From Spirochaetia bacterium (GTDB lineage: Bacteria > Spirochaetota > Leptospiria > Turneriellales > JAOUFE01): a DNA stretch of 37,803 bases. Below the pieces are notes generated by a model. That model made no database searches and had not been told where the DNA came from. It worked only from the letters and a program-made list of their open reading frames with translations. Numbering within the stretch: the first letter of the stretch is position 1; each line of letters starts with the position of its first letter. Position numbers and translations under genes: made by a program. The stretch covers positions 1-37,803 of the forward strand of contig JAOUFE010000006.1 of assembly GCA_029858425.1 (NCBI GenBank), given 5' to 3'. Below, one piece after another: positions 9,361 through 32,253 of this stretch.

Positions 9361-9474
9361 GCCTGGACTGGACTCAAAAATTATTCCCATCAATGAGAAG
9401 TTTTTGCACGCTTCGCGCAGAAACTGCAAAATCCCGCTCGAATGGGTTGAATTTTAAGTTCATGCCTGAACTCT
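9361..9474. repeat. Dispersed palindromic repeat, copy 1 (divergent)
   Basis: An imperfect palindrome whose arms share the outer motif of the other copies (GGACTCAAAAATTATTCCCAT on the left against rc GCATGAACTTAAAATTCAAC on the right). The centre GCACGCTTCGCGCAG is the GCGCGAAGCGC-type loop read from the other strand. It is the most divergent member of the family. No transposase frame lies inside or beside it. Confidence 0.55.
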
Positions 9475-9544
9475 AAACTTGGCCGTTAAAAGCAGATAAT
9501 CCCATTTAAGGACATTGTCAGCCTCCAGGCCAAAGGCTAAATGA

Positions 9545-9654
9545 TTTAAATTAGTGCGTTTTTGGGGCGCTTCGCGTCCCAAAAACGCGCATTTTAATAC
9601 ATTTTGATCTGACTATTGAGGTTCATGCCCAAGCTCAAGGCTAAATGATAATTT
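9545..9654. repeat. Dispersed palindromic repeat, copy 2 (left arm partly lost)
   Basis: The inner stem GTGCG(TTTTTGGG)/(CCCAAAAA)CGCGC and right arm ATTTTAATACATTTTGATCTGAC...GGTTCATGCCCAAGCTC match the copy at 31984-32111 closely. The left outer arm has been replaced. A 13-base direct repeat AAGGCTAAATGAT at 9533-9545 and 9637-9649 brackets what remains, which could mark a rearrangement or insertion. Confidence 0.65.
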
Positions 9655-9764
9655 TTATGGATTTATTCAAAAAATATCGACAACTTATCGAATATTATAT
9701 TATATGTAGAATTAGAAGATGTATAAATACATTGTTCAAGTCTAAAGGGAATTGAGGTAAAAAT

Positions 9765-10052
9765 ATGAACGTAGTATCTTTTTGTAAAAAAGTAGATTAT
9801 AGCGAGTTTTTGGATAATCATGTATTTCAGGTATTGGAACAGGATATTCAGGATTTAAATAATCCGGAATATCCTCTTCAGGTAATCATTGCAGATGACC
9901 ATGATATAATTGAATCCTTGAGGAAAAAGTTTAAACAGGATTTGCTGTTACTGATCCCATTGATTGGTTTGTTAGGAAAAAATTTATCTTATTCGGCCAT
10001 TCATAACTGCATTGCATCCGGAGCTACTATTCTGGTGGTTAGAATACTTTGA
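9765..10052 (+). CDS. Hypothetical 95-residue protein with a faint receiver-like pattern
   Basis: A 95-residue protein with a plausible ribosome-binding site (GAGG, about eight bases before ATG). I do not recognise a family. The string VIIADDHDIIESL recalls the first strand and acidic pair of response-regulator receivers. The C-terminal LLLLIPLIGLLG...AIHNCIASGATILVV recalls the last strand-helix-strand of that fold. The segment between is about 20 residues too short to hold the usual phospho-Asp strand. It may be a degenerate or internally deleted receiver, or unrelated. It starts a small cluster with the gene at 10099. Confidence 0.5.
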   Translation: MNVVSFCKKVDYSEFLDNHVFQVLEQDIQDLNNPEYPLQVIIADDHDIIESLRKKFKQDLLLLIPLIGLLGKNLSYSAIHNCIASGATILVVRIL

Positions 10053-10098
10053 AAAACACTCCATAAAAAGTTCAAAATTCAAATTTATATGAGGTTTT

Positions 10099-10308
10099 AT
10101 GAAATGGAATAACCTGATGGCGGATACATGGATCTTTATTGGGCAAAGCGCTCTCAATTTTTTTAAATATGAAAATCTATATATTAAAAAAGAAATACAT
10201 CAAAACAGGAATCAAAAACTTTTTGGTGAGGCCAGTAACATAAAATTAAAAATAATAGATACTTCTCCTGTTCGCAGGATTAAAGTTTATATTAAAAATG
10301 ACCCATAA
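10099..10308 (+). CDS. Hypothetical 69-residue protein
   Basis: A short basic protein (MKWNNLMADTWIF...), not recognised. ATG 10099 is preceded by GAGG at a slightly short four-base spacing. It lies 46 bases after the previous small gene and overlaps the start of the next short frame at 10298, so the three could be one transcript. No signal peptide and no clear motif. Confidence 0.4.
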   Translation: MKWNNLMADTWIFIGQSALNFFKYENLYIKKEIHQNRNQKLFGEASNIKLKIIDTSPVRRIKVYIKNDP

Positions 10309-10426
10309 TAAATATGTTTCAATTGTATTTATTCTCATTGGGTTATTTTCAGCTTTATCCGTCCAGAAACTCAAAATATTTGTCAGGCTTCTGTGGGAAC
10401 TTTATCAGGTTCCCACAGGGAGGTGA
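10298..10426 (+). CDS. Possible truncated 42-residue secreted or membrane peptide
   Basis: A frame starting at an ATG that overlaps the previous gene's end by 11 bases. The first 23 residues read as a signal peptide or membrane anchor (MTHNKYVSIVFILIGLFSAL). The frame then runs into the structured element that begins near 10380 and stops. This looks like the N-terminus of an exported protein cut off by that element, though a genuine tiny membrane peptide cannot be excluded. Confidence 0.3.
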   Translation: MTHNKYVSIVFILIGLFSALSVQKLKIFVRLLWELYQVPTGR

Positions 10427-10440
10427 CAATCTTTTTTCTT
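10380..10440 (+). terminator. Long hairpin followed by a T-rich run
   Basis: CTGTGGGAAC (10391-10400) pairs perfectly with GTTCCCACAG (10409-10418). An outer TTGTCA (10380-10385) pairs with TGACAA (10424-10429) across a five-base internal loop, and TCTTTTTTCTT follows. It has the form of a Rho-independent terminator for the small genes at 9765-10426, but it is also the left end of the structured element. Confidence 0.45.
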
Positions 10441-10639
10441 CCGATTGATTTAAGAAATCCTGAATTACAGGGTTTACCAATGCACTCCGTTTGTTTCTTC
10501 CCGACGAGGACAACGCGCTTTGCGCTCAGAACCTTCGCCCTGCGGGCTCGGTTGCGAACCGATGCCACTTGCATATTCGCGATCCCTATTACGGCTCTGC
10601 CTTGTCCCAGGTTGAAATACCGATCAGATATATAAAACA

Positions 10640-10663
10640 AAAGCCCGCAAGCGCGGGCTTTTT
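10640..10663 (+). terminator. Rho-independent terminator
   Basis: AAAGCCCGC (10640-10648), loop AAGC, GCGGGCTTT (10653-10661), then a run of T. A strong nine-pair stem with a classic T-tract on the rightward strand. It closes the structured element. Confidence 0.7.
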
Positions 10664-10664
10664 A

Positions 10665-11008
10665 GGATGCTCCAACAAAAAGACGAAATCCGAACCGTTA
10701 TTCAGGGAATTATTGTAGAAGTTTGGGAGTCGTTGGCAGCCTGAAACTGGAAAATATCCCAAAATCATATAAATTAAATAGCGATTTTAATCAAAATTGA
10801 ATGAAAATAATTCATAATTAATTCAAAAATATTAAAATATATATGGAATAAAATCCATTGAATATTAAATGAGTGATAATTAAAACCGGGTATCGAATTA
10901 TTTACGCCATATCACAGCTTTAAAGCGACTACGATTTAACTTCTCCGGTCTGCAAAAAAGATTATTGAGGTAGCATGAAACCGTTTAAAACATCATTTAA
11001 CGCTAAAA
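10665..11008. other. AT-rich intergenic stretch
   Basis: Very AT-rich from about 10750 to 10900. A 25-codon frame beginning MLQQKDEIRTV follows the terminator but has no ribosome-binding site and could be a gene fragment. Nothing else can be supported. Confidence 0.4.
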
Positions 11009-11299
11009 TTAAGTATTTTGACTTGTAACCGCAATTTGAATCATTAATTTGCATTTTCTGGTCACAATAATGCAAACATTCACAGACCCAAGAATATACA
11101 AACACTCGACTTCGAGTGTTTGTAACCTATCTGATAGGTGATTGCAGGTATATTTACATGAATGTAACCAGAGATTAATCAGGTAGATTACAAAACCCTG
11201 CTTTTCTAAAAAGTTTTCGATAACTGTGTAATTCATTTGAAGTCCTTTAGAAGCAATGCGCATAATTTGCGCACTTTTTTCTTGACTTTCGGTCTCCAT
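11009..11299 (-). CDS. Doubtful 96-residue reading frame over hairpins
   Basis: The first 38 residues (METESQEKSAQIMRIASKGL...) read like ordinary protein, and the ATG is divergent from the ribbon-helix-helix gene. The rest is Cys-rich and covers three adjacent hairpins: an 11-pair stem at 11099-11122, ACCTAT/ATAGGT at 11125-11139, and TTACAT/ATGTAA at 11154-11167. Coding in that part is therefore doubtful. No ribosome-binding site. It could be a truncated gene or chance. Confidence 0.2.
   Translation of the reverse strand: METESQEKSAQIMRIASKGLQMNYTVIENFLEKQGFVIYLINLWLHSCKYTCNHLSDRLQTLEVECLYILGSVNVCIIVTRKCKLMIQIAVTSQNT
11257..11273. promoter_or_regulatory. Operator-like pair of TGCGCA palindromes
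   Basis: Two identical six-base palindromes TGCGCA separated by TAATT, centre to centre 11 bp (one helical turn), eight bases upstream of the -35 box of the ribbon-helix-helix gene. Such paired sites on one DNA face are typical operators of ribbon-helix-helix autoregulators. The link is inferred from position. Confidence 0.45.
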
Positions 11300-11316
11300 T
11301 TCGTTATATTGAACAT
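11282..11316 (+). promoter_or_regulatory. Sigma-70 type promoter placing +1 at the start codon
   Basis: TTGACT (11282-11287), exactly 17 bases, TATATT (11305-11310). The ATG begins 7 bases after the -10 box, so transcription should start at or next to the A of ATG. No ribosome-binding site exists or could exist on such a leaderless message. Confidence 0.65.
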
Positions 11317-11529
11317 ATGGAAAAAAAGGTAAGTTTTAAAATAGACTCTGAAAAGCTGGATGAATTAAAATCAATCACCGGTATTTCTCAAAGTCAGGAA
11401 TTATTAAATGAAGCAGTAACCTTATTGGTATGGGCTGTAAATGAACGAAAGAAAAAGCATATCGTAGGTTCATTTGACGAAAAAAAGAATACATACAAAG
11501 AAGTAGTTTTACCGGCGTTAATGCAATAA
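11317..11529 (+). CDS. Ribbon-helix-helix type small protein, antitoxin-like
   Basis: A 70-residue protein with the pattern of a ribbon-helix-helix DNA-binding dimer: a basic strand (KKVSFKID), helix A (EKLDELKSITG), a turn, and helix B (SQSQELLNEAVTLLVWAVNERKKK). It ends in a charged extension. Such proteins are often antitoxins or autoregulators. The strong promoter, upstream palindrome pair and a tightly following gene (10 bases) fit a toxin-antitoxin-like or regulator-partner pair, but the partner is frameshifted and not recognised. Family assignment rests on the pattern only. Confidence 0.6.
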   Translation: MEKKVSFKIDSEKLDELKSITGISQSQELLNEAVTLLVWAVNERKKKHIVGSFDEKKNTYKEVVLPALMQ

Positions 11530-11539
11530 AAGGTCTTTA

Positions 11540-11964
11540 ATGCCACCGAGACCAAAAAAGGAAACCGTCCAACTAACGACAAATCAATATTTAAAAACCT
11601 GTCTTCACCAACCGCTCAAACGATTTTAGCGGCAATTGATCGGGAAATATTACAATCGAACCGGGAACATCAGCTATCGCATCAAGTAAGCAATCTACCT
11701 CCATTTGAGACTTATGTAAGCGAATTGGAAGATGCTCTTGTGTGGTGGTTGCAACCTGATGCAGCAAAACAGAAACTTCAACCGTATCCAGGTGCAGAAG
11801 GAGAATTAGTAAAACAAGTTTTATTTCCAACAATAAATTGGAAAACGGGCCAGACTCCTTTGGATATAAAAGCGCATATAAAAGCGCTTATTTATGCTTG
11901 CATTTGCAGCCAATTATTTTTTTTATGGATATGTGGACGCAAACCGATACGTCTTATATATTAG
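11540..11964 (+). pseudogene. Frameshifted partner gene of the ribbon-helix-helix gene
   Basis: ATG 11540 (AAGG eight bases upstream) opens MPPRPKKETVQLTTNQYLKT and stops at TAG 11627 after 29 codons. The neighbouring frame is open from before that point to 11964 and reads like real protein (PPFETYVSELEDALVWWLQP, INWKTGQTPLD). Restoring one T in the TTTT run at 11624-11627 joins both into about 141 residues. The last 20 residues look less natural. I do not recognise the family. Single-base loss is the simplest reading; programmed frameshifting is less likely because no slippery heptamer is present. Confidence 0.5.
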
Positions 11965-12009
11965 AGTTGTATTGACTAAAAAAAACAATACTCGAAAAAG
12001 GTTATAAAA

Positions 12010-14589
12010 ATGTTCGATTTTACAAACAGAGTTAAAAAAATTATCAATGAATTTGCCCCAAAAGAAGCAAAGAGACTGGGACACGAATATCTTGGCCCAG
12101 AGCATATTTTGCTTGGGATGTTGAAGGCGCAGGATTCGGTTGCCGTCAAGGTTATGATTAGTTTGAATATTGATCTGATGGAACTTCGTCGTGAAGTAGA
12201 AAAAAGGTGCGATCACGACGGAATGACTTTGCTTGTTGATCCCGGCAACAAAGACAAGGTGCAAAAAATATTGGAGTTTTCCCGTGAAGAAGCCAGGAAA
12301 TTGAGACACAGCTATATTGGATCAGAGCATATTTTGCTTGCCCTGCTGAGGGATACTACATCCATTGTTTCTGCGGCGCTGGCATCGTTTTCCATTACTT
12401 ACCAGGTAATACGAACAGAATTAAATCAAACTCTTGGCGTGCCGCAGGCGGGTCCGGCCAATATCAGAGCCCAGATGGCCGCTAAAAAAGAAGCTGTTCG
12501 AACTCCCATTCTTGAGGAATATGCCAGAAACCTGACGAAGCTGGCCATTGAAAAAAAAGTGGATCCTGTCATCGGAAGGGAAGCAGAAATCGAAAGAGTT
12601 ATCCAGATACTTTCCAGAAAAAGCAAAAACAATCCAATTCTGATTGGCGAAGCCGGGGTTGGTAAAACCGCCGTTGTAGAAGGACTGGCTCAGCAAATAG
12701 TGGGTAGAAAAGTTCCAGAATCGCTTTTCAACAAAACAATTTTCTCTCTGGATGTGGCAGCATTGATTGCCGGTACAAAGTATCGGGGCGAATTTGAGGA
12801 TCGTATAAAGAAAGTGATGAAAGAGGTTAAAAACAATCCGGAAATAATATTGTTTATTGATGAGGTACACACCATTATCGGGGCAGGAGCGGCCGAAGGC
12901 GCCGTGGATGCCGCCAACATTTTGAAACCCGCGCTTGCCAGAGGAGAGCTGCAATGCATTGGGGCAACAACTCTTCGAGAATATAAAAAGTATATTGAGC
13001 GCGATGCCGCGCTCGAAAGAAGATTCCAGACAGTACTCGTTGAAGAACCTACTATCGAAGATACAATTCGTATTTTGTCCGGATTGCGAAAAAGTTATGA
13101 AAAGCATCATGGTGTAATATATACCAAAGAAAGTATCAAGTCTGCCGTAAGATTGTCAGACCGATATATTGCCGACAGATTCCTGCCCGATAAAGCCATT
13201 GATGTTATCGATGAAGCGGGAGCTTCGGTTCGCTTAAAAGGTTCGCAAATGCCCGAAGATCTCAAGGAAATCGAAACCAGAATTGCAAAAACCATAAAGG
13301 ACAAAAACGATATGGTAAAATTGCAGGAATACGAAAAGGCCGCCAGACTTCGAGATGATATTGTGATGTTGGAAAAGAATCTTGATGATAAAATTGCCGC
13401 CTGGAGAAAGGAAAAACAGGAAAAGCCTGTTTATATTGAAGAAGAACATATTATGCGGGTTCTTGCCGACTGGACAGGGATTCCACTTCAACAAATGCAG
13501 GCTACCGACCTTGAAAAACTAATCAACATGGAAGAGACCATTGAGGAAAGGGTGGTTGGTCAAAAAAAGGCAATTGAAAAAATATCCAAGGCCATAAAGC
13601 GAGCCAGAACAGGACTAAAAAGTCCCGGATCGCCCATCGGATCTTTTATTTTTCTGGGACCTACCGGCGTTGGAAAAACCGAATTAGCCAAGGCTCTGGC
13701 TGAATTTCTTTTTGGCGATGAGGATTCTTTGATTCGCTTTGACATGAGCGAATATATGGAAATGCATTCTGTTTCCAAATTTATCGGGTCGCCTCCGGGT
13801 TATGTGGGCTACGATGAAGGAGGGCAAATCACCGAAGCGGTGAGGAGAAAACCTTATTCGGTTCTTTTGTTTGACGAGATAGAAAAAGCTCATCCTGAAA
13901 TTCAAAATATTATGCTTCAATTGCTGGATGAGGGTGTACTGACGGACACAATGGGCAATAAGGTAGACTTTAAAGAAACTCTGATTATTATGACTTCCAA
14001 TGTTGGCGCAAGGGATTTATTGAAAGGCGGAAAAGTAGGTTTTAACTCGGACAATCTTCAAAAAGATTCCAAAAATGAGTTGGTGATGGAAGAATTAAAA
14101 AGACAGTTTTCGCCAGAATTTTTAAACAGAATTGATGAGGTAATTATATTTGAGTCTTTGAGAAAAGAAGATATATCGAAAATAGTGGATATAATGATAG
14201 ATGATATAAATGTCAATGTTATTCACCAAAAATTGTTTATTTCCATAAACAGCAAGGCGAGGGAATATCTGGTGGAAAAGGGTTACAGCGAAACCTATGG
14301 CGCCCGACCCTTAAAAAGACTGTTAAGATCAGAAGTCGAGGATGTCCTTGCCGGATTGATGCTTGAGCGCAAGAACAAAGAGCCTGTAAAATATGCCATT
14401 AGCGCAGTAAACGATAAGTTAACCTTTAAGGCAAGTCCGATGGCCGTCAAGAAATTTGAGGAAATAAAAAAAGAGTACGTTATTGCCGAGCAGGATATTG
14501 ATTCATATTGGGATGATGAAGTCTTTGCCGGCGGAGCCGATGAAGAATCGAATAAAAAAATGGATGCCCCCGAATTAGCCCAAACCTGA
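12010..14589 (+). CDS. clpC: ClpC-type AAA+ unfoldase (Clp ATPase)
   Basis: An 859-residue class I Clp/Hsp100 ATPase. Two N-terminal Clp repeats (YLGPEHILLGML near 28 and YIGSEHILLALL near 103) precede the first AAA+ domain (Walker A GEAGVGKTAVVEG, Walker B ILFIDEVH). A UVR-type coiled segment near residue 430-450 (LQEYEKAARLRDDI) marks ClpC rather than ClpA/ClpB. The second AAA+ domain has GPTGVGKTELAKAL. It unfolds proteins for ClpP, which is not in the window. ATG 12010 has AAAGG eight bases upstream. The upstream 45 bases hold a short stem GTATTG/CAATAC but no CIRCE. Confidence 0.96.
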   Translation: MFDFTNRVKKIINEFAPKEAKRLGHEYLGPEHILLGMLKAQDSVAVKVMISLNIDLMELRREVEKRCDHDGMTLLVDPGNKDKVQKILEFSREEARKLRHSYIGSEHILLALLRDTTSIVSAALASFSITYQVIRTELNQTLGVPQAGPANIRAQMAAKKEAVRTPILEEYARNLTKLAIEKKVDPVIGREAEIERVIQILSRKSKNNPILIGEAGVGKTAVVEGLAQQIVGRKVPESLFNKTIFSLDVAALIAGTKYRGEFEDRIKKVMKEVKNNPEIILFIDEVHTIIGAGAAEGAVDAANILKPALARGELQCIGATTLREYKKYIERDAALERRFQTVLVEEPTIEDTIRILSGLRKSYEKHHGVIYTKESIKSAVRLSDRYIADRFLPDKAIDVIDEAGASVRLKGSQMPEDLKEIETRIAKTIKDKNDMVKLQEYEKAARLRDDIVMLEKNLDDKIAAWRKEKQEKPVYIEEEHIMRVLADWTGIPLQQMQATDLEKLINMEETIEERVVGQKKAIEKISKAIKRARTGLKSPGSPIGSFIFLGPTGVGKTELAKALAEFLFGDEDSLIRFDMSEYMEMHSVSKFIGSPPGYVGYDEGGQITEAVRRKPYSVLLFDEIEKAHPEIQNIMLQLLDEGVLTDTMGNKVDFKETLIIMTSNVGARDLLKGGKVGFNSDNLQKDSKNELVMEELKRQFSPEFLNRIDEVIIFESLRKEDISKIVDIMIDDINVNVIHQKLFISINSKAREYLVEKGYSETYGARPLKRLLRSEVEDVLAGLMLERKNKEPVKYAISAVNDKLTFKASPMAVKKFEEIKKEYVIAEQDIDSYWDDEVFAGGADEESNKKMDAPELAQT

Positions 14590-14590
14590 T

Positions 14591-15511
14591 TTGCACAAGT
14601 CTGTTCTAATAAGGGAGTTTCTCGGCTTCTCGTCCTGCGCCAGTCCAAAACCATCATTGTGGGACGGAACTGTGGGAGCAGCGGGGCATGTTTGCGGATG
14701 GTTAAAGCAAAATTCTGACGGACATGCGTATGCATCTGATCAGGATTTTCAAATGCTTGAAATTGCAAAAAAAGAAATATTTTCGCAAAATCTTCAAAAT
14801 CGCGTGAATTTAAAAAATGCAAACTTTTCGGAAAATCCATTTTCAGAATACTCTCCTTTTGATACGATATTCCTTGATCTGGGGATATCGTCGTTTCATC
14901 TGGACTCGATTGAAAGAGGCATAAGCATTAAAGACCATGGCGTACTGGATATGCGATTAAACCCCCGTGAAGGAATTCCCCTGTGGAAATGGCTGAAAAA
15001 AACATCTATGGTGGAAATTCGGGATGTGATTTACCGGTTTGGGGAGGAAAGTTATGCTCCGAGAATTGCTCAAAAAATAGTTGAAGATCGTCCAAATCAT
15101 GAAGAGTTAACTGCTGACTGGTTGAATCGCATTTGCATCGCCTCATATTCTGGAGGGAGGCACTCTCGATATGTTAAAAATCCCGGCATTAAAACCTTTC
15201 AGGCTTTTCGTATTTTTATCAACAATGAAATTCAGCATCTGGAAAATGCCCTCGATTTTTTACCTTACCTGTTGAAAATTCAGGGAAAGCTTATTATTAT
15301 ATCTTTTCATTCTCTGGAGGATCGGGTTGTGAAACATGCTTTCAGATCATTGGAAAAAATAGAAAATAAATCGGACTTTGCCAGGAGCGCTTATCGGGAA
15401 GGAGATTTTTCAGTCTTGACGAAAAAGCCTGTCCTACCCTCGCAAGAAGAAGTGGAGTCTAACCCAAGATCACGTTCAGCAAAAATGCGGGTTTTGCAGA
15501 GACTGCGCTAA
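14591..15511 (+). CDS. rsmH: 16S rRNA m4C1402 methyltransferase RsmH (MraW)
   Basis: A 306-residue SAM-dependent enzyme that N4-methylates C1402 of 16S rRNA. Seen: the start MHKSVLIREFL, DGTVGAAGH (SAM loop), DLGISSFHLD, GVLDMRLNP, TFQAFRIFINNEI, ISFHSLEDRVVKHAF and the terminal NPRSRSAKMRVLQR. The start is TTG one base after the clpC stop, so translation is probably coupled to clpC. Usually this gene opens the division/cell-wall cluster (mraZ-rsmH-ftsL-ftsI); none of those genes is here. The stop codon touches a dispersed palindromic repeat. Confidence 0.95.
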   Translation: MHKSVLIREFLGFSSCASPKPSLWDGTVGAAGHVCGWLKQNSDGHAYASDQDFQMLEIAKKEIFSQNLQNRVNLKNANFSENPFSEYSPFDTIFLDLGISSFHLDSIERGISIKDHGVLDMRLNPREGIPLWKWLKKTSMVEIRDVIYRFGEESYAPRIAQKIVEDRPNHEELTADWLNRICIASYSGGRHSRYVKNPGIKTFQAFRIFINNEIQHLENALDFLPYLLKIQGKLIIISFHSLEDRVVKHAFRSLEKIENKSDFARSAYREGDFSVLTKKPVLPSQEEVESNPRSRSAKMRVLQRLR

Positions 15512-15634
15512 GCTTGGGCAGAAACTCGAAATTCAGTAAGAATGATTTATATTAGCTTGTTTTTGGGCGCGAAGAGCCACAAAAACAAGCATTTTGTTGC
15601 ATTCTGATGGGAATCTCAAAGCTCTTGTCCAGGC
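15511..15634. repeat. Dispersed palindromic repeat, copy 3
   Basis: A complete imperfect palindrome. The left arm begins AGCTTGGGCAGAAACTCG, and the right arm ends GCTCTTGTCCAGGC. The inner stem is GCTTG(TTTTTG)/(CAAAAA)CAAGC and the centre GGGCGCGAAGAGCC. It begins on the last base of the rsmH stop codon and lies about 40 bases before the hrcA promoter. Its inner stem carries paired changes relative to copies 2 and 4. Confidence 0.75.
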
Positions 15635-15676
15635 ATCGTTAAATAATCAAAAAACCACCGCAAACTTGAATAATTA

Positions 15677-15705
15677 TTGACAACATGATTTTAAAAACAT
15701 ATATT
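15677..15705 (+). promoter_or_regulatory. Promoter of the hrcA-grpE-dnaK-dnaJ operon
   Basis: A consensus -35 TTGACA (15677-15682), 17 bases, and -10 TATATT (15700-15705). Transcription should start near 15712, right at the CIRCE element. Confidence 0.85.
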
Positions 15706-15712
15706 GCCAATG

Positions 15713-15739
15713 TTAGCACTCGAGTTGCTTGAGTGCTAA
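15713..15739 (+). promoter_or_regulatory. CIRCE operator (HrcA binding site)
   Basis: A perfect CIRCE inverted repeat: TTAGCACTC, nine bases, GAGTGCTAA. It starts at the predicted +1 and ends 6 bases before the hrcA ATG. HrcA is known to bind this site and repress the operon until heat shock. It is the only CIRCE seen; clpC lacks one. Confidence 0.97.
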
Positions 15740-15745
15740 AAAAAG

Positions 15746-16855
15746 ATGTTGGAACGAATTACAAAAAGACAGGCAGAGATTGTGCGTGCTGTGGTGAATG
15801 GTTATGTTTTAACCGGGCAACCTGTAGGATCGGCTATTATCGTAGAGCGGTTTATTTGCGATATTTCTTCGGCTACGGTGCGCAAGGAAATGTCGGTACT
15901 TGAGCAAATGGGTTATTTGTTTAGCCCCCATACATCGGCCGGCCGTATTCCGACAGATCTGGGAATGGAATTATTTATCGATGAATTAATTAATATTTAC
16001 GAAGATTCTATTGAAAATATTTCTGAATTCGAGGATTTTTATAAATCTGCCAATATGCAGGTTGACAAATTAATGAAGGTAACGGCGCAACAATTGGCCT
16101 CTGCATCCCAAAATGCGGGTTTTGTCTTGACTCCGGCAGCTACGGGAGCAGTAATTAACCGCATTGAAATTGTTTCTGTTACAGATAATATTGGTCTGGT
16201 AATATTAATCAGCCAGACAGGAACCATTTTTCAAAAAAAAATTAAATTTGAAACTGCACATTCCCAGGAAGATTTTTATAAGATAAGCAGATATTTAAAT
16301 CAAATGTTAAAAGGTTACGAAATTGAGGATATTAAAGAAAAAGGGCTTGCCTTTTTTTTCGATTCCAGTACCGACCTGGGCGATCTTGGAAACTCAGCCA
16401 TGATTGTTGCGCAGAATCTGATTTATTTGCCGCCGGATCAACAGGTATTGTTTGAAGGGGAAGCGGCGCTTTACAAAAGGCTGCTTGAAGAACACCCGAA
16501 TACCGGAGAGGCAGAAAAACTGGTGAGAATTCTGGATGATAAAGAATTTCTTATGGAACTTTTAAATACCTTAAAATCAGATAAAAGAATCAACGTCCAG
16601 GTAGGACTTGATATTGATGGAGAACATATCTCAGGAATTTCTGTGTTAAGTCGGGGTTATTCTGTGGGTGGCCGAAATATTGGATCGCTTGGAGTAATTG
16701 GAGTAAACAGAATGCCTTATGAACAGATTATCCGGAGTATGGATTACAGTTCAGCCATACTTTCCAATGTATTAAAAGAAACAGGCGAATTAAATTTTAA
16801 TGGAGAAATCATAGTGAAAATCGGCAAATTGCCAGAAAGAATTTTTAATATATAA
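15746..16855 (+). CDS. hrcA: Heat-inducible transcription repressor HrcA
   Basis: A 369-residue repressor of CIRCE-controlled chaperone genes. The winged-helix N-terminus (RQAEIVRAVVNGYVLTGQPVGS, then SATVRKEMSVLEQMGYL and SPHTSAGRIPTD) is typical; the GAF-like effector domain follows. It senses folding load through GroE in other bacteria. The gene starts right after its own operator, so autoregulation is expected. There is no clear ribosome-binding site, only the CIRCE right arm and an A-run. The length is close to the usual 340-360. Confidence 0.97.
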   Translation: MLERITKRQAEIVRAVVNGYVLTGQPVGSAIIVERFICDISSATVRKEMSVLEQMGYLFSPHTSAGRIPTDLGMELFIDELINIYEDSIENISEFEDFYKSANMQVDKLMKVTAQQLASASQNAGFVLTPAATGAVINRIEIVSVTDNIGLVILISQTGTIFQKKIKFETAHSQEDFYKISRYLNQMLKGYEIEDIKEKGLAFFFDSSTDLGDLGNSAMIVAQNLIYLPPDQQVLFEGEAALYKRLLEEHPNTGEAEKLVRILDDKEFLMELLNTLKSDKRINVQVGLDIDGEHISGISVLSRGYSVGGRNIGSLGVIGVNRMPYEQIIRSMDYSSAILSNVLKETGELNFNGEIIVKIGKLPERIFNI

Positions 16856-16868
16856 TTACGGGGTGACG

Positions 16869-17522
16869 ATGAAAACAGAAAAAGAAAATGCCAGAAAAGA
16901 TGACACCAATCAGGACATTCATTTGCAAGAACCTGTTCAAAATGATGGTTTTATTCCAGATGTATTTCCGGATGAAACAGGCGGGGATGAGTTGTCGGAA
17001 TCTGCCTCAGACGATTCTGACGAAGGAGCTTCCTTGCTTGAATCCAGGATAGAACAGTTAACCAGCGAAAACGCCCGCTTAAACGATCAGGTTTTGCGTG
17101 AACGCGCAGAGTTTGCAAATTTGCGCAAACGTCACAATCAGGAAACGCTTCAACTGGAAGGAAAAATTGCCGGGAAAATATTACAGGAAATCTTACCGGC
17201 GCTTGATGCATTAGACCAACTTCTTGTTGCCGGAGAAACCGGAGTCCAGGTATTGGATCAATTTCTGGATGGGTCAAAACTGATTCGAAAGCAATTATGG
17301 CAGGCATTTGAAGGTCTTGGAATTGAGGAAGTCAATCCTGTGAGTCTGGAGTTTGATCCCCTTTCCATGGAAGCCCTAAGCGTGACCGAAGTTGAAAACA
17401 TAGAATTTGAAAGAGTCGGTGTGGTTTATCAAAAAGGTTATAAATTCAAGGAAAGAGTAATCAGGCCGGCGCGAGTTGCTGTTGAAAAACCCAAAGTAGT
17501 TGAAAATGATAAAGCTAAATAA
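16869..17522 (+). CDS. grpE: Nucleotide exchange factor GrpE
   Basis: A 217-residue DnaK co-chaperone releasing ADP. An acidic disordered N-terminus (about 55 residues, rich in Asp/Glu) is followed by the long dimer helix (LTSENARLNDQVLRERAEFANLRKR) and the beta-wing domain (VNPVSLEFDPLSMEALSVTE, GVVYQKGYKFKERVIRPARV). I choose ATG 16869 because GGGG sits five bases upstream; a GTG at 16863 in the same frame would add two residues. It follows hrcA by 13 bases. Confidence 0.96.
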   Translation: MKTEKENARKDDTNQDIHLQEPVQNDGFIPDVFPDETGGDELSESASDDSDEGASLLESRIEQLTSENARLNDQVLRERAEFANLRKRHNQETLQLEGKIAGKILQEILPALDALDQLLVAGETGVQVLDQFLDGSKLIRKQLWQAFEGLGIEEVNPVSLEFDPLSMEALSVTEVENIEFERVGVVYQKGYKFKERVIRPARVAVEKPKVVENDKAK

Positions 17523-23919: not shown

Positions 23920-23931
23920 TGAAAGCCTCTG

Positions 23932-24055
23932 GGGCTTGGGCATGAACTCAATAATCGACCCCATCATTGGTAAAAATAGGCGTTTTTGCTCGCGGAGCGC
24001 CCCAAAAAAGCAAAATTACCTCTTGATCGGGCATGAATTTTGAGTTCAAGCTCAG
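23932..24055. repeat. Dispersed palindromic repeat, copy 5
   Basis: Left arm GGGCTTGGGCATGAACTC...; right arm ending GAGTTCAAGCTC; centre TTTTTGCTCGCGGAGCGCCCC. The outer arms match each other and those of copies 2-4 well; the inner stem is less perfect. It fills most of the space between the divergent glycosyltransferase genes. Confidence 0.65.
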
Positions 24056-24149
24056 ACTCTGTCTGTTTATATATCTCAAAGAATGAAAATTGGTTGATTG
24101 CATATACAGACAGACTAAATAAACCTATATCATATCTTAAGAACATCAA

Positions 24150-25163: not shown

Positions 25164-25165
25164 TT

Positions 25166-26533
25166 TTACAGTAGAGCAGTACCCAGGAGTTCCGCCAATA
25201 ATCTTTTGCTGTTTGCTTCGGCCAGAATTCTAATAATGGGTTCAGTATTTGAAGATCGAACATGAATCCACCCTTCTTGATGAGGAGAGATAAAATGATA
25301 ACCATCCGATTTATCTATTTTCCATTTCGGGTATTTATTTTGAATCTGATTAGCAATTTTGATTATATCTTTTGAATTTCCAGTAATAGCCTCTTTTCTC
25401 ATAAAGTACTCTGGAAAATCTTCCAAAATAGCAGGAAGCGACAACTTTGTCCGCAGCATGAGCGACAAAATCCACCCCATCGCAGAAATGGAATCTCGTC
25501 CAAAAGATGGAATAACCGGATCAATGACCCCGCCGTTGCCCTCGCCGCCAAATACGGCTTTTTTTCTTTTCATTAAATCAACTACATTTGCTTCTCCGAC
25601 TTTGCTTCGGAATACCTTACATGAATACAGCGAAGCCGTGTATTCATTGTACAAAGATGAGGAAAGGTTTACTACAACGCTGCCTTTTTTCCGGAATAGC
25701 GCTTCTTTCATGGCAATTGGCAGAGTCAGTTCCTCTCCGATTGCTTTACCGTCAGGCGCAATTATTGCAAGGCGGTCGGCATCCGGATCAAAGGCAAAGC
25801 CGATATCGCACTTGTTCTCCACTACAAATTTTGATAATTTTCCCAATGAAGAGGGTACAGGCTCCGGAGGTCTTGGAAATGAATACTGAATTTCTGGAAA
25901 AAGGGAGTAAAATTTAATCCCCATCCTCGATAAAAGTGCCGGAGCTGCCTCTGTGGCACATGCGCCCAGCGTGTCGATGGCCACCTTTAAATTTCCGGAT
26001 GGAATTTTATTTCCCGGAAAAATTCTGTCAAGGACATAGTTGATATGTAGCGCAACAGAAGCATCATGCGCATCGATTAAATTCCCCTGCTTCTTATAAA
26101 TCCCCCATTGCCCACTTTCTGGATTTTTTTTCAGGTTCTCCATTAAAATGTCATTTTCTTTGGCCGTGAAGAAAAAACCTTCCTGTTTCATAAATTTAAA
26201 GGCTGTATACTGAACCGGATTATGGCTGGCCGAAATCATTATTCCGCCAGAAAGTTTATGATGCTGGACGTAGGCTTTTATAGTAGGTGTCGGGACAATT
26301 CCAAGAGAATGAACATTGCGTCCAAGCGATTGCAAAACACCTGTAACTATTTTTTCGACAGCTTCTCCTGTGGGGCGATTATCCCTTGCTACTGCTATTG
26401 TACCAGGTTTAACTGATTGATTGAATGCATGCATGATTAGAGGAATATTGGCTGCATTGATATCATCCGGAAATAAGCCGCGCATGCCAGAAACGGATAA
26501 TTTCAGGGTAGTGGAGTTTAAATTAACTTTCAT
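25166..26533 (-). CDS. Phosphohexomutase (phosphoglucosamine/phosphomannomutase family)
   Basis: A 455-residue alpha-D-phosphohexomutase. The catalytic serine loop is ISASHNPVQY (near residue 100), the metal loop DPDADRLAI (near 245), the sugar loop GEGNGGVIDP, and the phosphate-binding loop RSSNTEPIIRI near the end. It could be GlmM (glucosamine-6-P to glucosamine-1-P for UDP-GlcNAc), ManB or a phosphoglucomutase; the GEGNGG loop favours GlmM-like enzymes. It overlaps the upstream small membrane gene by four bases. Confidence 0.9.
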   Translation of the reverse strand: MKVNLNSTTLKLSVSGMRGLFPDDINAANIPLIMHAFNQSVKPGTIAVARDNRPTGEAVEKIVTGVLQSLGRNVHSLGIVPTPTIKAYVQHHKLSGGIMISASHNPVQYTAFKFMKQEGFFFTAKENDILMENLKKNPESGQWGIYKKQGNLIDAHDASVALHINYVLDRIFPGNKIPSGNLKVAIDTLGACATEAAPALLSRMGIKFYSLFPEIQYSFPRPPEPVPSSLGKLSKFVVENKCDIGFAFDPDADRLAIIAPDGKAIGEELTLPIAMKEALFRKKGSVVVNLSSSLYNEYTASLYSCKVFRSKVGEANVVDLMKRKKAVFGGEGNGGVIDPVIPSFGRDSISAMGWILSLMLRTKLSLPAILEDFPEYFMRKEAITGNSKDIIKIANQIQNKYPKWKIDKSDGYHFISPHQEGWIHVRSSNTEPIIRILAEANSKRLLAELLGTALL

Positions 26534-26907
26534 TCTTTTTCAATGTTTGAAATAATCAAATTTTTTTCATGGATACTTTCATTGTAAAGTTTGTGGATCA
26601 ATAATTGCGAATGGACTCTGCATGAAACATGTATTAGTATTCCGAACAGTACGCCATATAATGCCAGTCGGTTGAATTTTGCCCGATAAAAATTTTTCCA
26701 TTGATGCCTTGCTTTATCTATGCTTATATTCTTAAAAAATTTATCTTTATACAATTGATTAGCTAGGTAGGCAGCAGAAACAAGCCCTCCCCACCATGCG
26801 ATAATCGGCATCAGGGAAATAAAAAAGGCCAGCAACAGGATTACTTTAATGACAATCCAGGGGATTTTGTCTGGTGCAATGTTTTTAATTATGTTCCATA
26901 CTTTCAT
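26530..26907 (-). CDS. Small membrane protein of unknown function
   Basis: A 125-residue protein with a hydrophobic stretch from about residue 16 to 50 (IPWIVIKVILLLAFFISLMP, then IIAWWGGLVSAAYLA) and a second near residue 80-95. A basic loop (KARHQWKNFYRAKFNR) lies between. Not recognised. It overlaps the phosphohexomutase start by four bases and follows the next membrane gene by 10 bases, so it belongs to the M23 lipoprotein-to-mutase operon and may act in the envelope. Confidence 0.75.
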   Translation of the reverse strand: MKVWNIIKNIAPDKIPWIVIKVILLLAFFISLMPIIAWWGGLVSAAYLANQLYKDKFFKNISIDKARHQWKNFYRAKFNRLALYGVLFGILIHVSCRVHSQLLIHKLYNESIHEKNLIISNIEKE

Positions 26908-26917
26908 ATTAGCGCCC

Positions 26918-27343
26918 TTAAATTTTATTTTTTCTGAATAATATCCTTTTATCGGAAAACGGGGCTGATATTTTTAGAGCGCCGGATTGAGTTTGATCTT
27001 CATCATCGGGATTATTCTCGCGATCCGGGGGCGCCTCATGCCTAAAAAAACCTCTCAATCCAGATCGAAATGCATCAGAATCGCCTTGATCGCGGTAGAC
27101 CTGCGCTACATGAGAAAAAAGGTAAACCACAAGAAATAATGCAGAACCATGCATTGCCAGCAATAAAAAAGAGCGGAATATTTTCCTTTTTTTTCGGAAT
27201 CTGTGGATAAAAATAATCAAACTAAGAACAAAAAAGGAAAACTGCAATCCCATTGCCATTATGGCCGCATGATAAGGGAAGATTAAAACAACTATAATAT
27301 TGCCGATACTGACAAATAAAAAGAGGAAAAGCAAAAATAGCAT
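26918..27343 (-). CDS. Membrane protein with three predicted spans
   Basis: About 141 residues from ATG 27343. Three hydrophobic segments (MLFLLFLFLFVSIGNIIVVL, an AAIMAMGLQFSFFVLSLIIF region, and SFLLLAMHGSALFLVVYLFS) are followed by an acidic, Pro/Asp-rich cytoplasmic-type tail. The start is uncertain: the frame is open to 27490 inside the M23 gene, and a TTG at 27376 is possible, but ATG 27343 has GGA at suitable spacing and begins the first span. No family recognised. Confidence 0.65.
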   Translation of the reverse strand: MLFLLFLFLFVSIGNIIVVLIFPYHAAIMAMGLQFSFFVLSLIIFIHRFRKKRKIFRSFLLLAMHGSALFLVVYLFSHVAQVYRDQGDSDAFRSGLRGFFRHEAPPDRENNPDDEDQTQSGALKISAPFSDKRILFRKNKI

Positions 27344-27380
27344 GACATTCCATTTTATGTTTATTTGAAATGTCAACTCT

Positions 27381-28421
27381 TTATTCTCTGACCGGAAGAA
27401 ACAAGAGAGAAAGGGGGTCGGCTGAGATACCGCTGATATATAAAGAAACATGCAAATGCGGGCCGGTTGCCATTCCTGTGGAACCGGCAAAACCGATGAG
27501 ATGACCCGCTTTTACCATCTGACCCGTGTAGGTATTCAGTTTACTCATGTGCATATAAACGCTTAAAATTTTATTTCCATGATCTATCCAGACACAATTT
27601 CCCTCAAAATATAAATTCTCTGCAACCACAACCTTGCCGTCAATCATTGCATATATCGGCGCCCCTGTTTGTGCGTAAAAATCCAGACCTCTATGTACGG
27701 ATATTTTGGGTTCCCTTGATATTTTCCGGCCATTTAGCATTTCATATTGGTCATAAATTCTTTTCGCATAAAATGGCGAAGTAATCCGGTGGAAATCTCG
27801 CGGATAAGCGGTAGAACTCTTGATATGATCCGGATCAAGGGCAGAAAAAAGTTTTTCCTTGATTTTCGCTTCGTATTGAATTTTTTCTTGAATTATTTTG
27901 TCTTGTTGCAGGTCGGTTCTGGAGTATTTCCCAAGATTTAAAGCGGTTTTATATACCGGAAATTCTTTTTTCTCCAGAAACAAATCATGCGAACAAGTCT
28001 TTTTGATGCCATTTAATTTATAGGCGATTGATATATTTGCAGAGTTTGCATTTTCTTCCGGATTGATGACAAAGAATCCACGGTATCCCCATTTGAGAGA
28101 CGTTAATAAAAATTGTTTTTTATCAACGATAAATGATGGAATTTCGTCAAATTTATTTTTTGCAGATGGAATCAGCTCCAAATAAATAATATCCCCATGA
28201 ACAAATTTGCGGGCGTAGAGATTTATTTGATAATCAGCGCTTTCCATTTTTTTATATTGAGCTGAACCCTGATCATAATTTTTGGGCGCAATGAGAGTAG
28301 TGTGCTTTGAAATGGATATAGTTTTCACGGGTAAAAAGGTAGCGTCAGATTTTATTATGCCAGCGCCAGTATTACAGGAAAGCAGAAGTGTATTTAGAAG
28401 GATTGTTCCTGATATTCGCAC
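27381..28421 (-). CDS. M23-family metallopeptidase, lipoprotein
   Basis: A 346-residue protein with a short signal and lipobox ending LLLSC (Cys16). An N-terminal region follows (about 20-200), then a C-terminal LytM/M23 domain beginning HRITSPFYAKR. Zinc ligands H243 and D247 (HRGLD) and H324 (HLH) are all present, as are H291 and H322, so it should be an active peptidoglycan endopeptidase on the outer or inner membrane. The start is GTG 28421; the signal has only one early basic residue and the ribosome-binding site is weak, so the true start is not certain. First gene of the run ending in the phosphohexomutase. Confidence 0.88.
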   Translation of the reverse strand: MRISGTILLNTLLLSCNTGAGIIKSDATFLPVKTISISKHTTLIAPKNYDQGSAQYKKMESADYQINLYARKFVHGDIIYLELIPSAKNKFDEIPSFIVDKKQFLLTSLKWGYRGFFVINPEENANSANISIAYKLNGIKKTCSHDLFLEKKEFPVYKTALNLGKYSRTDLQQDKIIQEKIQYEAKIKEKLFSALDPDHIKSSTAYPRDFHRITSPFYAKRIYDQYEMLNGRKISREPKISVHRGLDFYAQTGAPIYAMIDGKVVVAENLYFEGNCVWIDHGNKILSVYMHMSKLNTYTGQMVKAGHLIGFAGSTGMATGPHLHVSLYISGISADPLSLLFLPVRE

Positions 28422-28549
28422 AAGGTATACTTTTTTATGATATGGATACGGTGTACATGATTTTATGGAACCTGAATTCGTTGCGTGTCTGGAAACCTAA
28501 TTTCCCTTGAAGGTGATGAGCCTTTTCAAAGTATGTCATCTATCATTTT

Positions 28550-29071
28550 ATGGATAAAGCGCATTTACGAGAAGAATATGGAAAAAAATTTCGGGATTTT
28601 GAGAAAAGTCCGCTAAAGATTGACGCGCTTGTGGGGATTCGTCAAAGAATTCACGTTTTTTTCCACAGGAGAATCGTAAAAAGAATTATGGCCTATTCTC
28701 CCATGAAAACGGAATTGCCCATTCTGGATTTAATCAAGGATTTAAATTACGATATATATATCCCCCGAATACAGGGAGAGCAACTGATTCCAGTATCTTT
28801 AAGTACCGGGGAAATTGACAGTATTTCTTCAATGGATTTTATTATAGTACCGGGCCTTTTTATTACAAAGGAAGGTATACGATTAGGCAGGGGAGGAGGC
28901 TACTATGACAGGCTTCTTTCTGGTTATCCCCGAAACAAGACTGTATTTATCGGTTTTGATTGGCAGATCAAAAATGAACTTTCAGAAGATCCATGGGATA
29001 AAAGGGTAGGTTTCTGGATCACCCAAAACGAAGATGGCGCCTGCCCTGAAAATAAACAGTTTACAGAATAA
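28550..29071 (+). CDS. 5-formyltetrahydrofolate cyclo-ligase
   Basis: A 173-residue enzyme converting 5-formyl-THF plus ATP to 5,10-methenyl-THF. The signature RLGRGGGYYDRLLSGYP is present, preceded by DFIIVPGLFITKEGI and IYIPRI. The N-terminus (KAHLREEYGKKFRDFEKS) is the usual helical start. The length is slightly short but complete. It is divergent from the M23 gene. A weak ribosome-binding site precedes ATG 28550. Confidence 0.92.
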   Translation: MDKAHLREEYGKKFRDFEKSPLKIDALVGIRQRIHVFFHRRIVKRIMAYSPMKTELPILDLIKDLNYDIYIPRIQGEQLIPVSLSTGEIDSISSMDFIIVPGLFITKEGIRLGRGGGYYDRLLSGYPRNKTVFIGFDWQIKNELSEDPWDKRVGFWITQNEDGACPENKQFTE

Positions 29072-29174
29072 AATTTTTTTGAAATATGACTGGAAAATAT
29101 AGAAAAAGTAGGCGAATACATTAGTATATTATAATATATTAATATCATCAAGATGAGGATAAAAAGGAGTATAA

Positions 29175-29417
29175 ATGACAGTAGAAGCAAAAAAGGGTGA
29201 AAATGCCAATGGATGGACTAAATCGCAAAAAATGGCCGTGTGGTCTATGGTCGCGTTTACCATTTTGTTGATTCTTCACATATATTTTTTTCGGGGTGAC
29301 TGGAGCTTTATTACCGCTTTTTTTACGGCTGACCTGATACCATGGGTAATGCTATTATTTTTTGTGGCAATTGGCTTGTGTTTTTATGTGACATATCACT
29401 ATATTCGCAACCTTTAA
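29175..29417 (+). CDS. Small two-span membrane protein
   Basis: An 80-residue protein with a strong AAAAGGAG ribosome-binding site. A polar N-terminus of about 20 residues is followed by two membrane segments (MAVWSMVAFTILLILHIYFF and LIPWVMLLFFVAIGLCFYV). Not recognised. The promoter region is extremely AT-rich with the inverted repeat TATATTATAATATATTA. It stands alone between the cyclo-ligase and convergent nadB. Confidence 0.7.
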   Translation: MTVEAKKGENANGWTKSQKMAVWSMVAFTILLILHIYFFRGDWSFITAFFTADLIPWVMLLFFVAIGLCFYVTYHYIRNL

Positions 29418-29469
29418 CCTTATTTGGGTATAAGAAAAATGGTACGAACACACAGAGAAGAGAGAATTT

Positions 29470-31089
29470 TTATTCGATGGATTCAGGTAAAATAATTGTA
29501 TCCATCCTGGAATCTTCTCTGTGTTCCGGCGCTTCCAAAAGAAAATGTAATCCGCGACTTTCGTCTCTTTCAAGGCAAGAACGGATAATTAATCTGGCGC
29601 AAAGTATAATGTTGCGAAGCTCAAGTATTTCACGGGTGAGTCGGGCACGCTGGTAATAATCGTTCACATCTTCTTGAATAATATCCATAATTTTCAGGGC
29701 GCGATCCAGCCGGGGTTTTGACCTTACAATGCCTATATAATCCCACATAATATCCTGAATTTCCCTTCGCAGATGATTGATGATTCCCCACTCCTGAACA
29801 TGCACAGTTTCCTTATTGTTCCAGGGAGGAATTTTCCCAAAAGCATCCCGGTCGTTTCTTTTGGCGTCATATCTGTGAACAATATCCTGAACAGCCCGGT
29901 AACTAAAGACCAGAGATTCAAGAAGCGAGTTTGACGCAAGCCTGTTTGCCCCATGCACGCCGGTAGAAGCAGTTTCACCTGCTGCATATAGGTATTTTAT
30001 GTTGGTCAGGCCATTGTAGTCGGTTAGAACTCCACCACAAAGATAATGGGCGGCTGGTACAACAGGTATGAGATCTTGTGCGGCATCCAAATGATATTTG
30101 GACTTAAGAGTTTCATAAATATAGGGAAAACGATCAGCCATTTTTTGTTGTCCAATAGAGCGGCAATCCAGATAAACAAATTTGTCACCGTGTTTTTTTA
30201 ATTCAGAATCAATAGACCGGGCTACTATATCTCGCGGAGCCAGTTCTTCCATGGGATGATAGTTTTTCATAAAATATTCCCCTTGTTTGTTTATCAATTT
30301 TGCTCCTTCACCCCGGATAGCCTCCGATAAAAGAAAAGCAGGATCAGAGTCAAAATAAAGTACTGTAGGGTGAAATTGAATAAACTCCAGGTTGCGGATA
30401 TTACAGCCGGCGCGATAAGCCATGGCGACTCCATCTCCCGTACATTCGGAGGGGTTTGTGGAAAACGGATAGACTCTACCTGCTCCGCCAGTAGCAATTA
30501 AGGTGAAGTTTGCCAGAATAGTACAAATTTCGTTTGTTTTCGTATCTAATGCATATATGCCATAGCAATTTTCAATTTTTTCCCTATTATTACGATTCAT
30601 ATGATGCTCTGTTATTAAATCAACAGCCATCTGGTTTTCCATTAGTTTTATATTGTTGTTTTTGGCTATCTTTTCAAGAAGAAAATTCTGGATGTTTTTA
30701 CCTGTCTGGTCTAAAAAGTGTATGATACGTTTATCGGAATGTCCTCCTTCCATTCCGAGATCCAGGTTACCGAGTTCATCTTTGGTAAACAGAATTCCCA
30801 TATTCAGGAGGTCATGAATTCTTTCAATGCCATCATTTACCAGAATTTCTACTGATTTCTCATCACACAAACCGGCTCCCGCATTTAAGGTGTCCTTCAT
30901 GTGCTTTTCAGGAGAGTCCCCTTCTCCAATTGAAACGGCCACTCCTCCTTGTGCAAATCTTGTTGATCCCGACAGAGAATTGTCCTTGGTAATTATGATT
31001 ACTTTACCATACTCGGCAGCTTTGAGGGCAAAATATAAACCGGATATACCAGATCCAATAACCAGAAAGTCACAGCGATCTGATTTCAT
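29470..31089 (-). CDS. nadB: L-aspartate oxidase
   Basis: A 539-residue FAD enzyme oxidising aspartate to iminoaspartate, the first step of de novo NAD synthesis. The FAD motif is DFLVIGSGISGLYFALKAAEYG. Then come STRFAQGGVAVSIG, GGHSDKRIIHF, ATGGAGRVYPFSTNP, EFIQFHPTVLY and CGGVLTDYNG...GETASTGVHGANRLASNSLLE. The helical C-terminal domain is complete. SGSTRFAQGG and HFLDQTGKNIQN separate it from succinate dehydrogenase flavoproteins. It starts 11 bases after the receiver gene's stop without its own ribosome-binding site, so translation is probably coupled. Confidence 0.95.
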   Translation of the reverse strand: MKSDRCDFLVIGSGISGLYFALKAAEYGKVIIITKDNSLSGSTRFAQGGVAVSIGEGDSPEKHMKDTLNAGAGLCDEKSVEILVNDGIERIHDLLNMGILFTKDELGNLDLGMEGGHSDKRIIHFLDQTGKNIQNFLLEKIAKNNNIKLMENQMAVDLITEHHMNRNNREKIENCYGIYALDTKTNEICTILANFTLIATGGAGRVYPFSTNPSECTGDGVAMAYRAGCNIRNLEFIQFHPTVLYFDSDPAFLLSEAIRGEGAKLINKQGEYFMKNYHPMEELAPRDIVARSIDSELKKHGDKFVYLDCRSIGQQKMADRFPYIYETLKSKYHLDAAQDLIPVVPAAHYLCGGVLTDYNGLTNIKYLYAAGETASTGVHGANRLASNSLLESLVFSYRAVQDIVHRYDAKRNDRDAFGKIPPWNNKETVHVQEWGIINHLRREIQDIMWDYIGIVRSKPRLDRALKIMDIIQEDVNDYYQRARLTREILELRNIILCARLIIRSCLERDESRGLHFLLEAPEHREDSRMDTIILPESIE

Positions 31090-31100
31090 TGGCGTTATGT

Positions 31101-31772
31101 TTAAGAATCAGCCTTTTTTTTGCTTTTGCTGATTTTTTTAACAGGTTTTTTAATGGGAGTTGATTTCTTTGTAGTTTTTGAAGTTGTGGTTAATGAACGA
31201 GAACGTTTTTTTGTTTCTACACCGGGAGCTCGTGTTTTGATTCCATATTTTTTTATGAGTTCTCCAATTTCCTGTTCTTTTTGCTTTAAGGAGTTAAGAT
31301 GCTCATAAACCATCTTCATGAGTTGATCTTTTTTCACAGGCTTCTCCGCAAATGAGATTTTCAATTTCTTTGCCAAAGCCTCTACGCGCTGCGCATCGCT
31401 GCTTAACAGGATAAAATTTTTTTCGCTCCATTCTTTTCGGTTTCTTAAAATTTCCTGTATAAAATGAGTGCCTTTCAGGCTGGGTTCGGCGTCATATTCC
31501 AAAAATACAAGCGCATATCCATCTGGATTTATTAATGAGCCGTTTAATTCAGGAAGGCCAGGATTTGATTTTCCATTGCTTTTGGTTATGGTGTCATGGT
31601 AACGTAATACTTCATTTACATTGAGCTGATTCAGGTAACACCCATTTTTGAGAATCATTTCCCGGGCATCTGAAAATTTGTAAAATGAATCAATTTGCAA
31701 TCGAAAAGGTTTCAACGCATTTTTCAGAAGATCAATAAAACTGTGATTGTCGTCAATAATTAATGCTTTCAT
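31101..31772 (-). CDS. Divergent receiver protein with histone-H1-like basic tail
   Basis: A 223-residue protein. Residues 1-160 follow a response-regulator receiver: ALIIDDN (Asp7, Asp8), FILLSSDA (Ser124/125 at the Thr/Ser position) and FAEKPVKK (Lys144, the switch lysine). At the end of the third strand (ALVFLEYDAEP) the usual phospho-Asp is Glu92, with Asp94 two residues later. An extra 20 or so residues separate helix 1 from that strand. Residues about 178-223 are Lys/Ser/Thr/Arg-rich (KKRSRSLTTTSKTTKKS, KKPVKKISKSKKK). There is no standard output domain. DNA binding through the tail is inferred. It precedes nadB by 11 bases. Confidence 0.8.
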   Translation of the reverse strand: MKALIIDDNHSFIDLLKNALKPFRLQIDSFYKFSDAREMILKNGCYLNQLNVNEVLRYHDTITKSNGKSNPGLPELNGSLINPDGYALVFLEYDAEPSLKGTHFIQEILRNRKEWSEKNFILLSSDAQRVEALAKKLKISFAEKPVKKDQLMKMVYEHLNSLKQKEQEIGELIKKYGIKTRAPGVETKKRSRSLTTTSKTTKKSTPIKKPVKKISKSKKKADS

Positions 31773-32253
31773 TTTTAATAAATACCATCATTTTTTTAAG
31801 TCAGTATTCACCAGATCCTGGAAGTTTAATACATGGACAAGTACTTTAGGTATACAAAACCGAAAAAGCGCTTTTCATACAATCGGACACAAACATCAAG
31901 TTTTTTGCTTCTCCGTCAATTATGAATGATAATAGTATATTAAAATATTAGAATATCAGCAACAAGAAAAACATATGAGTACTGAGCTTGGGCCGGAACT
32001 CGTAATTCAGTCAGAAAGATTTAAATTAGCGCGGTTTTGGTGCGCGAAGCGCCGCAAAACCGCGCATTTTAATACATTCTGACGTGAATATTGAGGTTCC
32101 AGCCTAAGTTCTACTGAGCTGGTTCAGTATGTTTTTTTGTGGGGGAGAAAATTATTTGTTAGGGACGGGGTCAGCAGAGCCCGGGAAGGCGTGCGGCTTT
32201 GAATTGAATCTGCTTGACGTGCTGACGAAAATTCCAAAACTGCTTTTGCATTC
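31773..32253. other. Intergenic region between receiver gene and tRNA genes
   Basis: AT-rich DNA upstream of the receiver gene, then the palindromic repeat at 31984-32111, then about 140 bases leading into the tRNA genes. No protein-coding frame with a ribosome-binding site. A TTGACG in 32213-32220 could be a -35 box for the tRNAs, but no matching -10 box is clear. Confidence 0.5.
31984..32111. repeat. Dispersed palindromic repeat, copy 4 (best preserved)
   Basis: A near-complete 128-base palindrome. GAGCTTGGGCCGGAACTC pairs with GAGGTTCCAGCCTAAGTTC. AATTCAGTCAGAA pairs with TTCTGACGTGAATATT. ATTTAAATTAGCGCGGTTTTG pairs with CAAAACCGCGCATTTTAAT, and the centre is GTGCGCGAAGCGCC. TACTGAGCT occurs on both sides (31980-31988, 32112-32120). 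Confidence 0.8.

Follow-up and report, generated by a model that had tools for sequence, protein, structure and literature searches.

The window analysed here, a stretch of 37,803 nucleotides, holds five palindromes, which raise the questions of what kind of sequence they are and why their two arms change in a paired way from copy to copy. A sequence-only reading had offered a mobile element or a processing site among its options, and had attributed the paired changes either to selection on the folded form or to copying from arm to arm. All five sites are present at about the coordinates it gave, and all belong to one family of dispersed, imperfect palindromes of about 128 bp. The palindromes are a family of MITEs, non-coding mobile elements, and the sites are very probably non-autonomous MITEs moved by an IS1182-type transposase, with arms homogenised by template switching.

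HMM searches (E ≤ 1e-3) covered 909 kb of the 2.65-Mb genome, a sample weighted towards contigs with matches, and placed the family at 160 or more distinct sites, where 84 of the copies are nearly full length. A covariance model (CM) built from 31 copies, whose alignment also served for the HMM, gave at least 149 matches on both strands in a whole-genome search. Genome-wide there are no fewer than 160 copies and more likely a few hundred, far beyond the five of the window. The consensus is roughly GAGCTTGGGCATGAACTCGAAATTCAGTCAGAATGATTTAAATTAGCGC[AG]TTTTGGGGCGC-GAA-GCGCCCCAAAA[CT]GCGCATTTTAATACATTTTGATCTGATTATTGAGGTTCATGCCCAAGCTC, in which terminal inverted repeats of about 16–19 bp (GAGC[TCA]TGGGCATGAACTC) enclose an imperfectly paired middle and a central, perfect 17-bp hairpin. 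Both ends are described by a common 19-bp end matrix. The 128-bp element has no coding capacity and no long ORF, and the flanks of the aligned copies, dispersed over the 160 places, are unrelated.

Three of the window sites are clear members of the family. The best is a full-length 128-bp copy on the forward strand at 31984–32111 (CM 150 bits, E 9e-28), flanked by the target-site duplication TACT at 31980–31983 and 32112–32115. Its inner 17-bp hairpin lies at about 32029–32065; this stem had been ascribed to the fourth copy and is actually part of the fifth site. The copy is 99% identical to a young copy at C70:18081–18208 (= L094:18081–18208), where the duplication at the flanks is 15 bp (CATTTTTTAATATTC), not 4 bp. 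The second clear member, at 15510–15636 (forward strand, CM 121.7 bits, stem GCTTG/CAAGC), begins within the stop codon of rsmH (MraW) and lies upstream of hrcA, as judged from the Pfam matches of the neighbours. A CIRCE-like inverted repeat, TTAGCACTC..GAGTGCTAA, is also found upstream of hrcA at 15716–15745, and is present in the congener too (L047). The third, at 9533–9636 (forward strand, CM 116 bits, nhmmer positions 25–127), is truncated at its left end and retains the inner hairpin and right arm intact; at 9530–9650, this copy without a left end has a 13-bp direct repeat, AAGGCTAAATGAT, on both flanks. Its GTGCG/CGCGC stem had been read as a paired change, and it contains a T-G mismatch, so that the change is one-sided. 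The remaining two sites lie on the reverse strand: a diverged copy with a variant centre at 23932–24059 (CM E = 1.4e-5) and a very diverged copy at 9359–9473 (nhmmer E = 7e-4, CM E = 0.09). The latter is, with 31984–32111, one of two window copies with an exact 4-bp duplication, here TAAA at 9355–9358 and 9474–9477.

The host is an uncultured Leptospirales-like spirochaete. The named relatives recovered with the HrcA encoded in the window are spirochaete MAGs: a close one, 'Spirochaetia bacterium 4_1_July_SF_Bin56' (78% protein identity), followed by Leptospiraceae and Turneriella. The congener G001 is taken to be this MAG, as both give identical blast coordinates against the window. The search of related spirochaetes, also raised by the sequence-only reading, confined the MITE to one genus among the members of the class that were searched, with many copies here, two in a congener and none in the others. 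One congener copy (L032) sits between two TATT tetranucleotides, read directly off its sequence. No relatives were found in phage and plasmid collections, and no exact match to one arm pattern was found in viral contigs. A loose regular-expression scan for the arms performed no better than its reversed-sequence control, and arms were thereafter searched for with HMM and weight-matrix scans.

Evidence for mobility comes from the target-site duplications. Of the 84 full copies, 17 have exact 4-bp duplications adjoining their ends, where 0.75 would be expected and no more than 5 occurred in any of 300 shuffles of the flanks; other duplication lengths showed little or no excess in the same copies. 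In a scan for convergent pairs of end motifs up to 300 bp apart, which ignores the element interior, 23 of 129 pairs had a 4-bp duplication, compared with 0–3 at a shifted right flank. Since the elements with a duplication range from 36 to 241 bp (36, 63, 65, 66, 95 and 121–241 bp are included), the mobile unit is defined by its ends and not by its interior. The minimal, 36-bp element (L155:585–620, equivalent to C84:22312–22347) has a terminal repeat on either side of a 4-base spacer and nothing else, and is flanked by the duplication TTGA; such a two-repeat copy suggests that the terminal repeats alone appear to be sufficient for movement. Two 66-bp deletion derivatives (L074:14081–14169 and L082:7567–7683) share the same junction, at which CATGAAC is joined to GCGCATTTT, and the L082 derivative has the duplication CAAA. 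Exact 4-bp duplications are limited to about 20% of the full copies, and to 8 of 27 among the best, and MITE insertions with readable ends mostly have one. Copies without an exact duplication may have decayed, may be nested, or may have arrived by a stem-loop-replacing route of the IS1272 type. The congener yielded no empty orthologous site because gene order breaks there at the sites examined.

A candidate source of the transposase is found in the same genome. The end-pair scan revealed a 1704-bp insertion sequence of the IS1182 family at C84:22362–24065, flanked by the duplication ATTG and enclosing a 508-residue protein (C84:22454–23977) that matches the NCBIfam IS1182 model NF033551 with 346 bits (cut-off 270). 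The 36-bp minimal element sits just outside it. Its ends, GGGGCCAGGCCGGAACTCG and GAGGCCAGGCCGGAACTTC, compare with MITE ends of the form GAGCTTGGGC[A/C][T/G]GAACTCG and reach 18.1 and 19.8 bits with the matrix of MITE ends. Of 1.8 million windows, just 196 and 171 score as high, and most of those that do are MITE ends. A diverged MITE at L097:6840–6998 has the end GAGGTTAGGCCGGAACTCG, which is nearly that of the insertion sequence and intermediate between the two types. The intact insertion sequence and the MITE have only the terminal ~19 bp in common, and the ends fit the consensus at about 13 of 19 positions. Because of this imperfect match, the C84 element may be related to the actual partner rather than being the partner itself; since the MAG is about 95% complete, a better-matching insertion sequence could be absent from the assembly.

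Relics also connect the two kinds of element. In the IS1182 relics of C41 and C132, a similar end lies about 105 bp beyond the transposase fragment. In the congener (G001), a 245-bp element at L164:1442–1686 combines a MITE end (88% identity over 52 bp to window 23931–23982), an IS1182 transposase fragment (90% nucleotide identity to the C41 relic) and a second similar end. We take this element, whose flanks have no duplication, as a putative internal-deletion step from insertion sequence to MITE. Other transposases were considered as partners and rejected: the IS5-like C123, the IS1380-like C36 and the rve proteins of C208 and C207 have no matching end pairs, and two convergent half-elements of C108, 1352 bp apart, enclose a housekeeping gene rather than a transposase. 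A further half-element at L100:14904–14964 adjoins a DDE transposase at C36:15374–15925, which is weakly similar to IS1380/IS701, lies at a contig end and has no matching end pair. From the transposase, the ends and the duplications of this genome, we infer action in trans: an IS1182-family DDE transposase would recognise the terminal repeats and move the MITE, making a 4-bp target duplication on insertion. It is very probable, judging from sequence, that an IS1182-type transposase of the same genome moves the MITEs. The mobile-element option of the sequence-only reading is strongly supported by the 4-bp duplications, the cognate IS1182 element and the near-absence of the family from the congener.

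The paired changes in the inner stem also greatly exceed chance, in agreement with the sequence-only reading: the covariation score is 0.279 against 0.121 after shuffling, is equalled by none of 500 shuffles and collapses when the partners are slid, and in the outer six pairs 277 of 336 cells are Watson-Crick against 184 shuffled (maximum 206 in 2000 shuffles), figures in which stem changes common to many copies are partly inherited and independent events are not exactly counted. Among 56 hairpins, the three-base loop reads TTC in 20 and GAA in 15; GGA/TCC and AAA/TTT loops likewise occur in both forms, and the loop flips between copies with the closest arms, such as L075:3525 and L117:1996. 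Mismatches comprise 18 G-T and T-G against 36 A-C and C-A, or 15 G-T against 21 A-C without the outermost pair, and pairing is perfect by the tip and poor in mid-arm. Since the loop inverts, G-T does not exceed A-C and pairing is perfect at the tip, the cause seems to act on DNA: template switching in replication, with one arm serving as template for the other, is the best account of the paired changes, ahead of selection on RNA structure, and selection on the DNA itself may contribute. Template switching between the arms would copy one arm from the other and invert the loop. Polymerases that switch template in inverted repeats homogenise the arms and invert the spacer (PMC8604942); the likeness to the MITE hairpins extends to both effects, GAA to TTC included, whereas the published cases are in yeast genes and not in a bacterial mobile element (PMC8604942). 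Of the two causes first put forward, copying is thus favoured and selection on the fold is not.

The strong covariation of the inner stem, together with a fold of very high stability (z from about −8 to −11), would also be expected if the hairpin were kept as an RNA structure, as a terminator, mRNA stabiliser, processing site or small RNA, with mobility incidental. We consider this improbable. Besides the freely flipping loop and the lack of a G-T excess over A-C, the 36-bp and 66-bp copies have moved without an inner stem, and two tRNAs were the sole Rfam matches in the window, with no known structured RNA beyond them. The genomic positions point the same way. Of the 160 places, 152 are outside predicted genes (simple ORF calls, with 90% of the DNA coding), and copies are found in both orientations. 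The neighbouring genes are divergent at 58, tandem at 72 and convergent at 7, while divergent, tandem and convergent gaps account for 39%, 52% and 10% of intergenic length. Between convergent genes there is no enrichment (7 of 137, where intergenic length gives about 10%), and neither the terminator nor the processing-site option finds support in these orientations and positions. Since the neighbour classes are near the intergenic background, the copies seem to be tolerated insertions rather than terminators, and we infer that they persist mostly between genes through the loss of insertions within genes. It is more doubtful still, to the point of being negligible, that the family consists of REP/REPIN palindromes mobilised by a transposase of the RAYT (Y1/HUH) kind. 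REP sequences are likewise palindromic, intergenic and present in many copies, but no Y1_Tnp protein (PF01797) is found in the genome, of which about 5% is missing, and 4-bp duplications with IS-like terminal repeats are ill-suited to a single-strand HUH mechanism.

Nested elements raise the possibility of a different kind of selection. In five copies (L113:14190–14375, L140:90–285, L095:19290–19545, L089:70–335 and L074:16860–17130), the hairpin tip GGGGCGC-loop-GCGCCCC is replaced by an insert that starts with GGGGTTGTCTAA or a variant and ends in its approximate inverse; not every one of these cases need be an independent event. A second repeat family of roughly 60–200 bp, with ends GGGGTTGTCTAA[AC]AAGTCG, occurs in MITE tips and by other G/C hairpins, with further sites at L131:6060–6290 and L137:3800–4070. 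Tip replacement resembles, by analogy, the inverted-repeat-replacing insertion of IS1272, a relative within the IS1182 family (PMC5678879). The tips may tentatively be regarded as preferred landing sites, exactly replaced by the inverted repeats of another element, giving nested hairpins that would move as composite MITEs and whose layers template switching would keep paired; we hold this as a possibility with the odds against it. A step less likely is that the hairpins are kept because they serve as landing sites for stem-loop-replacing IS1182-type elements, the paired changes being partly selected in DNA, which would add to the MITE reading. IS1272 does replace inverted-repeat targets (PMC5678879), and the second element does replace the tip in five copies. 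On the other hand, tip replacement shows use as a target and not a benefit to the MITE, some of the five replacements may stem from one event, and most readable MITE insertions duplicate 4 bp instead of replacing a stem-loop.

Among known repeats, the ERIC elements of enterobacteria are imperfect palindromes of about 127 bp, non-coding, intergenic and dispersed. The spirochaete MITE is like them in length, imperfect palindromy, intergenic position and lack of coding capacity, a likeness drawn from descriptions of the two; ERIC is not known to us to have an IS1182 partner. MITEs that derive from IS1182 elements and have 4-bp duplications are already on record, and since the ISMac2 MITEs and the 4-bp direct repeat of ISPse1 are published, the spirochaete MITE is a further case, unusual in its copy number and near-complete palindrome. 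In Methanosarcina acetivorans, the MITEs that belong to ISMac2, of the IS1182 family, have 4-bp direct repeats (PMC3852290), and resemble ours in being non-coding, multicopy elements, about 160 bp long, with IS1182 terminal repeats (PMC3852290). They number 14, with 26-bp inverted repeats (PMC3852290), against at least 160 in one third of the spirochaete genome, and as far as descriptions go the present MITE is set apart by its nearly full-length palindrome, central 17-bp hairpin and spirochaete host. ISPse1, of the same family, is 1653 bp long with inverted repeats of 16/16 and a direct repeat of 4 (PMC3281130); IS1272 has 16-bp inverted repeats and makes no target duplication (PMC5678879). 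The C84 element and the MITE agree with such insertion sequences in transposase family, size and terminal-repeat length, with ISPse1 in the 4-bp direct repeat and perhaps with IS1272 in palindromes as targets, whereas the MITE itself has no transposase.

The puzzling palindromes of this spirochaete thereby become a recognised type of mobile DNA for which there is a likely transposase, and the series from 36-bp to composite elements is a rich natural data set on what an IS1182 transposase requires. Since replication can yield the same pattern, a repeated hairpin may covary strongly without this alone counting as evidence of RNA function; loop inversion and the balance of G-T and A-C mismatches help to separate selection on RNA from the effects of replication.
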